Below, one piece after another: positions 4,332-25,538 of a stretch of 26,600 nt of DNA (its first letter is position 1; every line of letters begins with the position of its first letter). Source of the DNA: Nitrospirae bacterium CG2_30_53_67 (GTDB lineage: Bacteria > CG2-30-53-67); the NCBI GenBank assembly GCA_001873285.1, contig MNYV01000142.1, positions 1-26,600 of the forward strand, in the 5' to 3' direction. The position numbers were made by a program, and so were the translations under genes. The notes beneath the pieces were generated by a model, which saw only the letters and a list, made by a program, of their open reading frames with translations, was not told the DNA's origin and ran no database searches.

Positions 4332-4368
4332 TTGACAATTGTACTGTTGAAATGTACTATTGAACAGT
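4332..4368 (+). promoter_or_regulatory. Promoter and probable operator of the first toxin-antitoxin pair
   Basis: TTGACA (4332-4337), 17 nt and TACTAT (4355-4360) form a good promoter. Overlapping it are two direct copies of TGTACT(G/A)TTGAA (4340-4351 and 4353-4364) and an inverted repeat ACTGTT...AACAGT (4343-4348/4363-4368). This is where an autoregulating antitoxin-toxin complex would bind. The repressor role is inferred from toxin-antitoxin biology. Confidence 0.65.
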
Positions 4369-4389
4369 TCATTCAAGGAGGTGATTCAC

Positions 4390-4671
4390 ATGATCACGGT
4401 TAAAGAGGATACGGCTCTCATAGGGATTGCGGAGTTGAGGAACAAGGCTTCCGATGTTCTGAGTATAATAAAAAAACACCGTGTTATTCTGACCAAACGG
4501 AATAAACCCTTGGGTGTTATCATCGATTACGATGAATACAAAGAAATGCAACGGATCATTGATGAAGTAGAGGATCTTGCCTTGGGATCCATAGCCAAAG
4601 ACCGTCTGGAGAGAAAAGGAAAAAAATACGTCAGCCTGGATGAGACGGAGAAAAAGGTGGGGCTCAGGTAA
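4390..4671 (+). CDS. Phd/YefM-type antitoxin
   Basis: A 93-residue protein with the Phd/YefM N-terminal fold: LIGIAELRNKASDVLSIIKK, then a strand VILTKRNKPLGVIIDYDEY, which is the usual dimerising, DNA-binding half. The charged C-terminal tail (residues 60-93) would wrap the toxin. AAGGAGGTGA lies just before ATG 4390, a near-perfect ribosome binding site. The stop TAA shares one base with the toxin ATG (TAATG), so translation is coupled. It probably represses the promoter at 4332-4360 together with the toxin. Confidence 0.85.
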   Translation: MITVKEDTALIGIAELRNKASDVLSIIKKHRVILTKRNKPLGVIIDYDEYKEMQRIIDEVEDLALGSIAKDRLERKGKKYVSLDETEKKVGLR

Positions 4672-4958
4672 TGTACACCGTCCTGATCGATGAGCTTGTC
4701 CTCAAAGAAGACTTCAGAAAGATCGACAAACCTGACCAGCAGAGAATCATCAAGACCATCAGGAAAAAGCTGACGAGTGAACCTGAAATCTTCGGCTCGC
4801 CCTTGCGAGCCGACCTTAAAGGGTTATGGAAGCTGAGAGTGGGACCCTATAGAGTCATTTATGAGATAAAGAAAAAAGAGGTTCTGGTCTACGTCATCAA
4901 GGTTGGATTCAGACGGGACGAGGAAGTGTATAAAGAAATTTTAAAACGTTTCAAATAA
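4671..4958 (+). CDS. RelE/ParE-superfamily toxin
   Basis: A 95-residue basic protein with the RelE fold signature. There are helices rich in K/R, then LRADLKGLWKLRVGPYRVIYEI and a final strand VYVIKVGFRRDEEVY. RelE-type toxins cleave mRNA on the ribosome, whereas ParE types poison gyrase. The R-x-G-x-YRVIY block with the final (H/F)R-x-(D/E)-Y resembles the RelE/StbE group, but the target cannot be decided here. It overlaps the antitoxin stop by one base and has no promoter of its own. Confidence 0.85.
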   Translation: MYTVLIDELVLKEDFRKIDKPDQQRIIKTIRKKLTSEPEIFGSPLRADLKGLWKLRVGPYRVIYEIKKKEVLVYVIKVGFRRDEEVYKEILKRFK

Positions 4959-5069: not shown

Positions 5070-6365
5070 ATGAATAAGCACAATATTTTTATAGCGGATT
5101 CTCGTTCGATGTCGGAAGTTCCGGATGAGTCCGTCCATCTCGTCATTACGTCGCCGCCTTACTGGCAACTCAAGGATTACGAGAGTGTCCAGCAGATCGG
5201 CTTTCATGATACCTACGAAGAATACATAAACAACCTGAACCTCGTATGGAAAGAATGCCACCGTGTCCTGCACGGCGGTTGCCGTCTGTGCATCAATATC
5301 GGTGATCAGTTCGCCAGATCTGTATATTATGGCCGCTATAAAGTCATCCCCATCAGAACCGAGATCATTAAATTCTGTGAATTCATCGGTTTCGATTATA
5401 TGGGGGCCATTATCTGGCAGAAGGTGACGACCTGTAACACGACGGGCGGGGCTACGATTATGGGGTCGTACCCCTATCCACGAAATGGAATTATCAAGAT
5501 TGATTACGAATTTATCCTGCTCTTCAAAAAACCCGGCAGCCCCCCGCCGGTCGACAAGGCGGCGAAAGAGCAGTCCAAGCTGTCTGTAGAAGAATGGAAC
5601 GAATACTTCGCCGGACACTGGAATTTTCCCGGGGAGAAACAGGATAAGCATCTGGCCATGTTTCCAGAAGAGCTTCCCCGGCGGTTGATCAGGATGTTCA
5701 GCTTTGTCGGGGAAACGGTTCTTGACCCATTCCTGGGAAGCGGCACGACCTCCCTGGCGGCAAAGCGTCTTCAAAGGCACTCGATCGGATACGAGATCAA
5801 TGAGTCATTTTTACCGGTGATCAGAAAAAAAATCGGGGTTGAGCAGGCCGATATTTTCAGTCAGACCGTTGTAGAAGTCGTTAAACCGGCACGAGAGACC
5901 ATCGACCGCCGGCAGGAAATACAAAAAATGCCTTATATATTTCACGATCCTGTCCGATTCGACAAGAAGATCGATCCCAGGAAGATGACCTTCGGTTCAA
6001 AAATCGAAGCCAACGGAAACGGTAAAGGGCAGTATCTACATTTGAAGCGCGTGATCGCCCCCAACATGATGGAACTCAATAACGACATGATCGTCAGGTT
6101 GATCGGCATTGGAACAAAGGCAGGCAAGGAGCCGGAAGCCATGAAATGGCTTTGGGACAAATTAAAGGGGCAGAGCGTTTACCTGAAATTCGACCAGGCA
6201 AAATATGATGAAAACAGCCGGCTGCTCTCTTATCTGTATCTGAAAAATAATACCTTTATCAATCTTCATTTACTTCGCTCAAATCTGGTCCAATTAGACG
6301 AGACATTCCCATTCAGACACCATGACAAGTTCAAAGCGATCCTTAGAGAAGAAATCCGACCATGA
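5070..6365 (+). CDS. Beta-class DNA methyltransferase (likely m4C) with C-terminal SNase-like domain
   Basis: This 431-residue protein transfers a methyl group from S-adenosylmethionine to a DNA base. The catalytic motif IV, TSPPYW (27-32), comes before the SAM-binding motif I, DPFLGSGTT (219-227). This order defines the beta class, and the S-P-P-Y form is common in N4-cytosine enzymes. The block around PYPRNGIIKIDYEF (135-148) resembles CTAG-specific enzymes such as M.MjaI and M.MthZI as I recall them. Residues about 339-427 look like a staphylococcal-nuclease fold (VRLIGIGT, then NSRLLSYLYL and FINLHLL). The arginines equivalent to R35 and R87 are kept (R343, R384), but the positions of D40 and E43 read G348 and A351, so this domain is probably not catalytic. 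The ribosome binding site is weak. A nuclease fragment follows. Confidence 0.88.
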   Translation: MNKHNIFIADSRSMSEVPDESVHLVITSPPYWQLKDYESVQQIGFHDTYEEYINNLNLVWKECHRVLHGGCRLCINIGDQFARSVYYGRYKVIPIRTEIIKFCEFIGFDYMGAIIWQKVTTCNTTGGATIMGSYPYPRNGIIKIDYEFILLFKKPGSPPPVDKAAKEQSKLSVEEWNEYFAGHWNFPGEKQDKHLAMFPEELPRRLIRMFSFVGETVLDPFLGSGTTSLAAKRLQRHSIGYEINESFLPVIRKKIGVEQADIFSQTVVEVVKPARETIDRRQEIQKMPYIFHDPVRFDKKIDPRKMTFGSKIEANGNGKGQYLHLKRVIAPNMMELNNDMIVRLIGIGTKAGKEPEAMKWLWDKLKGQSVYLKFDQAKYDENSRLLSYLYLKNNTFINLHLLRSNLVQLDETFPFRHHDKFKAILREEIRP

Positions 6366-6383
6366 AGAAACTCAAGATGAGAA

Positions 6384-6671
6384 ATGATCAGAGCATGGGT
6401 CAAAGACTTGGTTATCGTGAAAACATTTGTCGGCTTGAAATTTCAGGAGGCGATTCTGAAACGTGTCGCCGCACATACGGGAAAATCCTATAGGACATCC
6501 GATCCTGAAGAAGAGGCGAGGGGGATCGATGGCTATATCGGCGATCATCCCGTCAGCATCAAACCACAGACTTATGAATCGAAGCAGATGTTACCGGAAA
6601 GCATCGGGGTACAAATCATCTACTATGAAAAAGTCAAGAACGGAATTAATATCTTTTTTGACGAATTGTAA
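6384..6671 (+). CDS. MjaI-like restriction endonuclease, C-terminal fragment (probably inactive)
   Basis: The 95-residue frame contains WVKDLVIVKTFVGLKFQEAIL, then EEEARGIDGYIGDHPVSIKP and VQIIYYEKVKNGINIFF. I recognise this as the C-terminal half of MjaI-type (CTAG) type II endonucleases. The family is nearer 170-200 residues, so about 80-100 N-terminal residues are missing. An in-frame TGA at 6378 blocks any upstream extension. The methyltransferase stop overlaps an ATG at 6362 (ATGA), where the intact gene would start, but that frame is different and stops at 6493. This suggests deletion plus frameshift, leaving a solitary methyltransferase. The family assignment is from memory. Confidence 0.6.
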   Translation: MIRAWVKDLVIVKTFVGLKFQEAILKRVAAHTGKSYRTSDPEEEARGIDGYIGDHPVSIKPQTYESKQMLPESIGVQIIYYEKVKNGINIFFDEL

Positions 6672-6673
6672 TA

Positions 6674-8374
6674 TCATCGCTTTTTTTCTTTCCCTGTCTT
6701 TTGGATTCTGGCCCATTCATCACGTAATGTTACCGTCCGGTTGAAGACGAGCCGGTCCTGAGTGGAGTCTCGATCCACGCAGAAGTAACCCAGTCTTTCA
6801 AACTGGTAACGGCTTCCTGGTGCTGCACCCGCGAGGCCGGGTTCCAGCCTGCACGATGTCACCGTCTCCATGGATTTCGGATTCAGAAAGGCCTTGAAGT
6901 CGGGTGTGTCCTTATCCCCCTCGGGATCGGCTTTGGTGAAGAGATGATCGTAGAGGCGGACTTGGGCCTGGATCGAGTGGGCGTCAGAGACCCAGTGCAG
7001 GGTGGACTTGACCTTGCGGCCGTCCGGGGAGTCGCCGCCCCGTGTGGCCGGGTCATAGGTGCAGTGGAGTTCCACCACCTCGCCGGCCTGGTTTTTTACG
7101 GCGCTGACGCATTTTATGAAATACGCGTACCTCAGCCTGACCTCCCGGCCCGGGCAAAGGCGGTAGAACTGTTTGGGCGGGTCCTCCATGAAATCCTCCT
7201 GTTCGATGTAGAGGATTCGTGAAAAGGGGACCTTCCGTGTCCCCATGCCGGGATCTTCGGGATTGTTGACGGCCTCCAGTTCCTCCATACGGCCTTCAGG
7301 ATAGTTGTCGATGACCACGCAGAGGGGCCGAAGCACGGCCATGACGCGGGGGACCCGCTTATTCAGGTCTTCACGCAGGCAGTGTTCAAGGAGTGCAATA
7401 TCAACCATGCTCTCCCTTTTGGCCACGCCGATGCGTTCACAGAAGCTGCGGATGGCCTCGGGCGTGTATCCCCGCCTGCGAAGCCCGGAGATGGTGGGCA
7501 TCCGGGGATCGTCCCAGCCGGAGACATGCCCCTCCTGAACCAGTTGCAGGAGCTTCCGTTTGCTCATGACCGTATGGCCGAGGTTGAGGCGGGCGAACTC
7601 GATCTGCCGGGGATGATGGATTTCCAACTGATCAAGAAACCAATTATAGAGCGGCCGGTGATCCTCAAATTCCAGCGTGCAGATGGAGTGGGTGATCCCT
7701 TCGATGGAATCCGACTGCCCGTGGGCAAAGTCGTACATGGGATAAATGCACCATTTCTCGCCGGTTCGGTGATGCGAGGCGTGAAGGACCCGGTACAGGA
7801 CCGGGTCCCGCATATTCAGATTCGGGGAGGCCATGTCGATCTTTGCCCGGAGCACACGGGAGCCGTCTCCGAATTCGCCGGCGCGCATCCGTTCAAAGAG
7901 GTCCAGGTTCTCTTCAATAGAACGGTTCCGGAAGGGGCTCTCCCTGCCCGGCTCGGTTGGGGTGCCGCGGTATTCGCGGATTTCATCCGCGCTCAGGTCA
8001 TCCACATAGGCCTTGCCCTTCTTGATCAACTGAACGGCAAATTCATAAAGTTTCTCGAAATAGTCGGATGCATAGTAGAGCCTGCCGTCCCAGTCGAACC
8101 CGAGCCAGCGGACGTCCTCCTGGATTGATTCCACGTACTCGACTTCCTCTTTGGCCGGATTGGTATCATCGAACCGAAGGTTGCAGAGGCCTCCGAATTC
8201 CCCGGCGATGCCGAAATTGAGACAAATGGATTTGGCATGTCCGATATGGAGATAGCCGTTAGGTTCCGGCGGGAACCGGGTCTGCACCCGCCCTTGGTTC
8301 TTGCCGTCTTTTATATCTTCGGAAATGGTCGTCCGTATAAAATCAGATGGCGGTGTCTTGCCATGCATGCCCAT
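6674..8374 (-). CDS. glnS: Glutaminyl-tRNA synthetase
   Basis: A class I synthetase that charges tRNA-Gln. It has the HIGH block [16 protein letters not shown] near residue 40 and the KMSKS equivalent VMSKRK in the middle, followed by the C-terminal beta-barrel anticodon-binding region. At about 566 residues it is the length of E. coli GlnRS (554). The frame runs open to 8503, but that extension is repeat sequence. ATG 8374 and TTG 8380 are both candidates; GAGG (minus strand, 8392-8389) is 8 nt from the TTG and 14 nt from the ATG. The gene faces the accessory block, with its stop only 2 bp from the end of the nuclease fragment. It was probably once coupled to pyrE (see the element at 8399-8643). 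Confidence 0.96.
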
Positions 8375-8398
8375 ATTCAAGTGTATGTCCTCAATAAT

Positions 8399-8643
8399 GA
8401 CGGTTTCGTAATAAGTCCTCAAATAGGACGGCAAAGAAAAAAGGCCCAGATGCAAGGCGCGCAAGTCCTGAGGAATCAGCGCGTACATAGACGTACGCTG
8501 CAATGACCTCTCTGCGTGCCCGCCTGAGCGAGGACCTGCCTGCCACGCTGTGGCGCAGGCATGGCGCTCGCAGTCAGGCGGTCACGCACAGGCAGGCGAA
8601 GGACGCAGCGCAACGCCGCAGATGGACTTTTTACGAAGCCGTC
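8399..8643 (+). mobile_element. MITE-like element, family 1, copy 1 (between pyrE and glnS)
   Basis: Terminal inverted repeats: GACGGTTTCGTAATAAGTCC (8399-8418) and GGACTTTTTACGAAGCCGTC (8624-8643). Flanks AATAAT (8393-8398) and AATAAC (8644-8649) look like a 6-bp target duplication with one change. The core 'gatgcaaggcgcgc', 'gtcctgaggaat' and the hairpin GCGTAC/GTACGC are shared with the copy at 18662-18815. It encodes no transposase, so it is non-autonomous. It supplies the last three codons and the stop of pyrE. A 90-bp unit is inserted inside it. Confidence 0.85.
8508..8597 (+). repeat. 90-bp palindromic unit nested in the MITE-like element
   Basis: Compared with the copy at 18662-18815, this stretch is extra, lying between 'gctgcaatgac' and 'gaagga'. 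It is palindromic: 8514-8532 pairs with 8567-8587 with few mismatches (CCGCCTGA against TCAGGCGG), and an inner CCTGC/GCAGG hairpin lies in between. Similar CCTGCCTG text occurs in the other repeat family at 16630-16656. It looks like a REP-type unit that entered the MITE. Confidence 0.65.
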
Positions 8644-9173
8644 AATAACTCATCAATCGAGAATATGGGGTGATAATCGTAGTTACGGAGGGATTCTCTG
8701 CCGCCCATATTCCTGTCCACGATTGAAATAACCATTGCAATCTTCAGTCCGGCCTCTTTCAGCCGTTCTATGGCCGTCAGCACGGATTTCCCTGTGGAGA
8801 CGACGTCTTCAACGACGACGATTCTCCCCCCTTTTTCAATGATCCCCTCTATGTATTTTTGAGTCCCATGCTTCTTGGCTTCTTTTCTCACACTGACGAC
8901 GGGGATATTCTTCCTTTGTTGATAGAAGGCATAGTGACTGACACTGAAGGCAATGGGAATGGCCCCGTACATGAGGCCGCCGATATAGTCTATATGCTTG
9001 TCCCCGATCATGCCGTAGATCAGTTCGCCGATCAAAGAGCCGGTTTCGGGGGTGTTGATGACCTGCTTGGCATCAATATAATAAGCGCTCTCGCCTCCAT
9101 GCGCAAGGGTGAACCTGCCGATTTGCAGGGCTTTCTTTTGTATGATCTCTTTGAGTTGTTGTCTTGCATCCAT
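8631..9173 (-). CDS. pyrE: Orotate phosphoribosyltransferase
   Basis: It converts orotate and PRPP to OMP in pyrimidine synthesis. The 180-residue product carries the PRPP-binding motif VVVEDVVSTGKS and the lysine-rich loop VRKEAKKHGTQK expected of OPRTase. GAGG lies 5 nt before ATG 9173. The C-terminus is odd: the final residues TAS and the TAA come from the terminal repeat of the MITE-like element ending at 8643. With the element removed, the frame would end DELLRTYT and stop 2 nt before the glnS ATG. The protein core is intact, so the enzyme is probably functional. Confidence 0.94.
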   Translation of the reverse strand: MDARQQLKEIIQKKALQIGRFTLAHGGESAYYIDAKQVINTPETGSLIGELIYGMIGDKHIDYIGGLMYGAIPIAFSVSHYAFYQQRKNIPVVSVRKEAKKHGTQKYIEGIIEKGGRIVVVEDVVSTGKSVLTAIERLKEAGLKIAMVISIVDRNMGGRESLRNYDYHPIFSIDELLTAS

Positions 9174-9196
9174 GTCCGCCTCTTTTGGGCCTGCAT

Positions 9197-9223
9197 CTTA
9201 TATCAAAAAAATCTTTTTGACAA
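9197..9223 (-). promoter_or_regulatory. Possible promoter of pyrE
   Basis: On the minus strand TTGTCA (9223-9218) and TATAAG (9202-9197) precede pyrE, but the spacer is only 15 nt. A second TTGTCA copy lies at 9236-9231 as part of a direct repeat. The short spacing keeps this tentative. Confidence 0.3.
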
Positions 9224-18653: not shown

Positions 18654-18661
18654 TCAGTCTT

Positions 18662-18815
18662 GATGAACTCGTAAAAAGTTCATCAGTGAGACGGCACAGT
18701 AAAAAGCTCCGGATGCAAGGCGCGCGAGTCCTGAGGAATGAGGCGTACTGAGAGGTACGCTGCAATGACGAAGGATGAAGCGCAACACAGCAGGCGGACT
18801 TTTTACGAAGCCGTC
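18662..18815 (+). mobile_element. MITE-like element, family 1, copy 2 (between rseP and ispG)
   Basis: 154 bp. The right end GGACTTTTTACGAAGCCGTC (18796-18815) is identical to that of the copy at 8399-8643. The left end GATGAACTCGTAAAAAGTTC is its imperfect inverted repeat. AGTCTT occurs directly before (18656-18661) and after (18816-18821) the element. The match extends to GTCAGTCTT (9 bp) because the end of the element coincides. This is a target duplication of at least 6 bp. The core hairpin GCGTAC/GTACGC is conserved. Confidence 0.88.
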
Positions 18816-18842
18816 AGTCTTGCCGGGGTGACACGGGCGACT

Positions 18843-24981: not shown

Positions 24982-25251
24982 ATGAAAGATTTACAAGAGA
25001 TTCTTCCGGTAACCAGGGTGAAGAAAGAGCTGCTTGAGATCATCAAGAGAATGGAGAGATTTGATGAGGCGGTGGCGATCACCAGGAATGGCGTTCCCGT
25101 TAGTGTAATGATGTGTTTTGATCGATACGAGGGTTTGATGGAGACCATAGAAATTCTCTCTGATCCGGCTACAATGAAGGCGCTGAAAAAATCAGTACAG
25201 GATTTCAATGAGAAGAGGACGATCAGTCATAAGGAGGCCTGGGAGGATTGA
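24982..25251 (+). CDS. Phd/YefM-type antitoxin (second module)
   Basis: An 89-residue protein with the Phd/YefM layout: ILPVTRVKKELLEIIKRME, then AVAITRNGVPVSVMMCFDRYEGL, then an acidic tail for toxin binding. AGGAG lies 7 nt before ATG 24982. The stop TGA overlaps the TTG start of the toxin (TTGA), so the two are coupled. A TATAAT (24935-24940) and the inverted repeat CCATT...AATGG (24943-24963) upstream may be its promoter and operator, but I see no good -35 box. Its sequence differs from that of the antitoxin at 4390, so the two modules are not recent duplicates. Confidence 0.82.
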   Translation: MKDLQEILPVTRVKKELLEIIKRMERFDEAVAITRNGVPVSVMMCFDRYEGLMETIEILSDPATMKALKKSVQDFNEKRTISHKEAWED

Positions 25252-25538
25252 GCCCATACCGTTTGACCTATTCACAAGTCTGCCGAAGCCTGATTAAAAA
25301 GTTACATTCCAAGATCAAGCCTGCCCTGAAGAATGAAATTGAAAGATTGTCCGCCACACCTTTTCTCGGGAAACCTTTGATTGAAGAATTTGAAGGGTTT
25401 CATTCGCTTCCGTACAGACGCTATCGGATCATCTACAGAGTGAATAATCAAGAAAAGGTGGTCGAGATTCACTTTGTCGGGCATAGGAAGGACTTCTACG
25501 AAGACTTCCGAAAATTATTGAAGGGAGGTTTCAAGTAA
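25248..25538 (+). CDS. RelE/ParE-superfamily toxin (second module)
   Basis: A 96-residue protein with helices of the RelE fold, then PLIEEFEGFHSLPYRRYRIIYRV and the final strand VEIHFVGHRKDFYEDF. The YRIIY core and the terminal H-R-x-x-x-Y are typical of RelE/StbE toxins. The start is a TTG at 25248, overlapping the antitoxin stop by 4 nt, with AAGGAGG 10 nt upstream inside the antitoxin gene. A rare start codon on the toxin would keep its output below that of the antitoxin, which fits the usual balance of such pairs. Confidence 0.82.
   Translation: MSPYRLTYSQVCRSLIKKLHSKIKPALKNEIERLSATPFLGKPLIEEFEGFHSLPYRRYRIIYRVNNQEKVVEIHFVGHRKDFYEDFRKLLKGGFK

Follow-up and report, generated by a model that had tools for sequence, protein, structure and literature searches.

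An IS1182-derived MITE at the pyrE-glnS junction of Nitrospirae bacterium CG2_30_53_67 donates the pyrE stop codon

Introduction

In the window, the 26,600-nt stretch of contig MNYV01000142.1 from Nitrospirae bacterium CG2_30_53_67 that was analysed here, the genes for orotate phosphoribosyltransferase (pyrE) and glutamine--tRNA ligase (glnS) are separated by a long inverted repeat that reaches into the end of the pyrE frame. A preliminary description read this arrangement as a miniature inverted-repeat transposable element (MITE) that had split an ancestral, translationally coupled gene pair. The locus thus raises the question of what the repeat is, what its arrival did to pyrE, and whether a coupled pyrE-glnS operon existed before it. 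The features discussed are collected in Table 1.

Table 1. Features of the pyrE-glnS junction (window coordinates)
Feature	Position	Strand	Description
glnS, glutamine--tRNA ligase	6674..8374	-	NF011291 880 bits, TIGR00440 765 bits; ATG start, in-frame TTG at 8380
Target site duplication, copy 1	8394..8397	none	ATAA
IS1182-type MITE	8398..8644	- (relative to pyrE/glnS)	247 bp: canonical 156 bp plus 90-bp extra module
Terminal inverted repeat, glnS side	8398..8418	+	TGACGGTTTCGTAATAAGTCC
GC-rich palindromic module, 90 bp	8508..8597	none	In window copy; absent from the congener's orthologous element and from 156-bp copies
Terminal inverted repeat, pyrE side	8624..8644	-	TGACGGCTTCGTAAAAAGTCC; source of pyrE codons T-A-S and stop TAA
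Target site duplication, copy 2	8645..8648	none	ATAA
pyrE, orotate phosphoribosyltransferase, 180 aa	8631..9173	-	TIGR00336 145 bits, cut-off 107; stop inside element
Promoter-like site upstream of pyrE	9195..9223	-	TTGTCA-17-TAAGAT; consensus match only; conserved in congener

Results

The element begins at T8398 and ends at A8644 (TGACGG...CCGTCA), with a perfect 4-bp duplication, ATAA, on either side. Both the element and its target duplication had been recognized in the preliminary description, but the limits given there (8399-8643) are slightly off, and the duplication is of 4 bp rather than the 6 bp of AATAAT/AATAAC. The longer strings consist of ATAA plus one base per side: the left one adds the A that precedes the target and the T with which the element opens, the right one the closing A of the element and the C that follows the target. 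Exact 4-bp duplications in the register TGA...TCA are found at 14 of 31 full-length copies of the family (shuffled pairings gave a mean of 0.9 and a maximum of 5), with a per-base identity of 0.79. When the joined flanks of nine copies from the window genome were matched against the only available congener, four sites (L002, L007, L009 and L010) were empty there and carried the 4-bp site once, which fixes the register. The 6-bp register was set aside: exact duplications are fewer (10 of 31), and C, not T, follows the target at three of the four empty sites. For the window copy, 4 bp gives an exact match and 6 bp leaves one mismatch. A residual chance is left for a register of the form A-N4-T, the flanking bases being usually A and T. 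Direct proof of target duplication comes from the duplications across the family together with the empty sites.

At least 13 further, dispersed loci of the window genome match the element, and a pattern built on the terminal repeats has 33 matches there and 68 in the congener, against none for a reversed-pattern control. It is short, lacks a transposase gene, has 21-bp terminal repeats, is present in at least 13 other copies in the window genome and about 40 in the congener, and shows target site duplication as well as empty sites, as expected of a MITE. The usual size of a copy is 156 bp; the window copy is longer because of the palindromic module, of which only a 23-nt piece occurs elsewhere in the genome (contig C60), and which may either have been gained in the window genome or lost in the congener. 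Two further copies in the window genome are enlarged mid-element as well (254 and 352 bp), and at one site (L015) the flanks are common to both species and the element interiors differ; the family is therefore mosaic.

A second copy of 156 bp lies in the window itself, between rseP and ispG (18661-18816), with a perfect GTCT duplication; the same junction in the congener holds a different, shortened element. Since the long ispG frame from 18738 begins within this copy, the true ispG start is probably further downstream, near an ATG at about 18846. Related copies also occur in other phyla. One of them, in a genome that belongs to a different phylum from the window's (G094:C249:1826-1972, L083), is 86% identical over 148 bp and has a perfect ACAT duplication, which suggests horizontal spread or else a binning error. 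A literature search with the core of the terminal repeat returned unrelated papers only.

A candidate source of the mobilizing activity is a 1,928-bp element in the window genome (G000:C150:5797-7724; L167 1298-3225). It carries the gene for an IS1182-family transposase (NF033551, 364 bits, cut-off 270), and its ends, TGACGGCTTCGTAAAAAGTCC / TGATGGTCTCCTAAAAAGTCT, match those of the MITE. The unequal end pair TGACGGCTTCG / TGATGGACTCG is found in many MITE copies, as in the full-length element. The MITE ends being the same as those of an autonomous IS1182 element, we regard the family as IS1182-derived; similarity to the full-length element is limited to the ends, and it is these shared ends that suggest mobilization by its transposase or that of a relative. 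The transposase is present in one copy in the window genome, and no match at E <= 1e-20 was obtained in eight other genomes, which are drafts. The full-length element is flanked by ATAT/GTAT, three of four bases being alike, and sits between def and fmt, where it provides the def stop codon. The def-fmt junction of the congener holds a remnant of an element (L174) and is no clean empty counterpart to the full-length element.

The RNA of the window element is predicted to fold into a strong hairpin (-121.5 kcal/mol, z -6.5). This fold, combined with the intergenic placement, is what a structural RNA or a REP-like regulatory element would display, but such a reading does not account for the exact 4-bp duplications, the empty sites and a full-length insertion sequence with the same ends, and there is no Rfam match within the element. 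We consider it very improbable that the repeat is anything but a transposon copy.

PyrE at present ends in ...DELLTAS, and the codons for TAS together with the stop TAA lie in the terminal repeat. The ends, the duplication and this position bear out the earlier view that a MITE inserted at the 3´ end of pyrE, duplicating its target and lending the gene its last three codons and stop. Removal of 251 bp (the element and one target copy) restores a frame that reads ...DELLRTYT and stops with TGA at 8379-8377, 2 nt before the glnS ATG (8374-8372) and overlapping the TTG at 8380-8378; the GAGG at 8392-8389 (minus strand) then falls inside pyrE, again as described. The restored frame had also been offered as direct support for the target duplication. 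It is no such proof: of the three possible frames through the rejoined sequence, two run into a stop ahead of the glnS ATG anyway, and an open frame that then stops is weak evidence, not beyond chance expectation. In the congener, the same restoration yields no stop and the frame runs into that of glnS, because the sequence that today lies beyond the pyrE stop is of a length that differs by one base. The tails of PyrE homologues beyond the conserved ...ELL region are unrelated and vary freely, from about 0 to 14 residues, so the change from RTYT to TAS should be of little consequence.

The congener is the sole other genome of the genus (G001, Hainich-H32-bin143-1, CAKKPE010000049.1), and a broad contig scan of genomes with PyrE found it alone. 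It carries a 156-bp element at the same place between pyrE and glnS, and its PyrE already ends in TAS. Judged by this shared site, the insertion is shown to have been present in the common ancestor of the two species; it is not recent, the two being 83% identical in PyrE and 92% in GlnS.

Whether the element entered a coupled operon is a separate matter. A search of close relatives for an empty pyrE-glnS site found none, the only congener having the same insertion. Four other genomes of the family (G002-G005; GlnS 76-78% and PyrE about 40% identical to the window proteins) have no insertion at glnS, and glnS is not next to pyrE. Unlinked genes in relatives free of the element had been named in advance as evidence against an ancestral pair; the refutation is only partial, because the two genes could have become neighbours on the stem of the genus, ahead of the insertion. 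Nor was glnS beside pyrE at any of about 50 other pyrE loci examined, which came from many families, and a pyrE stop overlapping a glnS start was not found in an element-free relative, the congener carrying the element and the other family members being unlinked. A bicistron with TGA overlapping TTG agrees with the restored window junction, where GAGG stands 8 nt upstream, and with the adjacent, co-directional genes of both species. Set against this are the missing empty site, the missing linkage, the ease with which restored frames stop and the congener restoration that enters the glnS frame. The relatives at hand thus do not favour a coupled ancestral bicistron, and we regard it as rather doubtful that the insertion split one. 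In the genus itself, pyrE and glnS were probably contiguous before the element arrived.

The neighbourhood may itself be new, because the PyrE of this genus is diverged and lies outside the class clade. PyrE sequences of G002-G007 form a supported clade (97/92), from which the two congeners are excluded on a long branch, and PyrE identities between the genus and the remainder of the class are 36-41%, compared with 54-87% within that remainder. Linkage of pyrE and glnS was seen in this genus only. Under this account, pyrE became the neighbour of glnS on the genus stem as a foreign or strongly diverged gene, the element was inserted shortly afterwards, and there was no old operon at all. However, an AU test does not reject a single clade of all eight PyrE (p 0.167), and a native gene evolving fast would look similar. 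A xenologous pyrE is suggested, hinted at by the tree and not proved by the AU test; a recent origin of the neighbourhood as a whole has, in our estimate, slightly less than an even chance.

A simple scan revealed neither a terminator-like nor a sigma-70-like promoter site inside the element. The element does lie between the two genes, but "split" overstates its effect: pyrE and glnS are still adjacent and co-directional, no terminator-like site separates them, and they are merely spaced by a hairpin. A retained operon with a hairpin spacer appears to be the likeliest present state. Elsewhere in the window, a gene resembling a DNA methyltransferase (motif TSPPYW) is followed by a small ORF (5070-6671, by eye), possibly a restriction-modification pair. 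Two gene pairs whose translations resemble, by eye, toxin-antitoxin modules of the Phd/RelE type are located at 4360-4958 and 24982-25538.

The frames of other genes likewise end at the TGA or TAA of the element (offset 0) or at its TAA/TAG (offset 11). These are the genes of a CitMHS transporter, an AsmA-like protein, a class V aminotransferase, an amidase_3 protein and an M3 peptidase, together with accD, rpsF (capped at a site that the two species share) and def, the last by the full-length element; a trmFO-like gene, recognized by eye only, is also capped. About ten identified genes besides pyrE, in two species, end in an element. We claim no statistical excess, because short offsets were screened for and some of the long frames may be antisense artefacts. 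Stops at offsets 0 and 11 of its ends, the ten or so capped genes and the copies in other phyla would be in keeping with a family shaped, by target choice or by selection, towards stop-donating insertion at the 3´ ends of operon genes, but this seems unlikely.

Discussion

Taken as a whole, the locus is best explained by insertion of an IS1182-derived MITE that donated a stop to pyrE and probably left the operon in place with a hairpin before glnS, and we hold this explanation with considerable confidence. In the common ancestor of the window species and its congener, a MITE of about 156 bp entered a 4-bp target among the final codons of pyrE, directly ahead of glnS, presumably moved by the transposase of the full-length IS1182-type element or a relative. 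The terminal repeat can close two of three entering frames within 14 nt, by TGA at offset 0 or TAA at offset 11, and pyrE thereby exchanged a short, non-conserved tail, as read from the restored flanks, for T-A-S-stop. Both genes are probably still co-transcribed from a promoter that precedes pyrE, and glnS would now depend on its own start for translation, beyond a long RNA hairpin.

The insertion is real and well supported, and it is an ordinary one of a known kind; its exact limits and the candidate IS1182 partner are new details. MITEs associated with ISMac2, of the IS1182 family, have been described from Methanosarcina acetivorans (160 bp, 14 copies, inverted repeats of 26 bp, direct repeats of 4 bp; PMC3852290, Table 4). 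Going by that description, they resemble the present family in size, copy number, 4-bp duplication and IS1182-family partner, but their host is archaeal and their repeats are of 26 bp, compared with about 21 bp and slightly unequal ends here. There is also a published precedent for a MITE that caps genes at their 3´ ends: QMITE2 of Coxiella burnetii is 150-190 bp long, lies mainly at gene 3´ ends, has short C-terminal overlaps with kdgK, ogt, recN and ruvB, and extends enhC in one strain (PMC5896051). QMITE2 is a separate element family that, unlike the present one, has 7-11 nt duplications and an internal GTAG REP (PMC5896051). IS1272, also of the IS1182 family, replaces a target stem-loop without duplication (PMC5678879); the partner transposase family is the same, whereas here a 4-bp target is duplicated.

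The restored frame of pyrE cautions against inferring an ancestral operon from such a restoration, as stops in two of three frames can convince by chance. More generally, a small transposon with stop codons in its ends can hit the end of a housekeeping gene, within its last codons, and yet not break it: the C-terminus is altered (here to TAS) and a long hairpin comes to precede the gene that follows, an effect that is general and easily missed. For the poorly sampled lineage studied here, the analysis adds a high-copy MITE family tied to a candidate IS1182 transposase.
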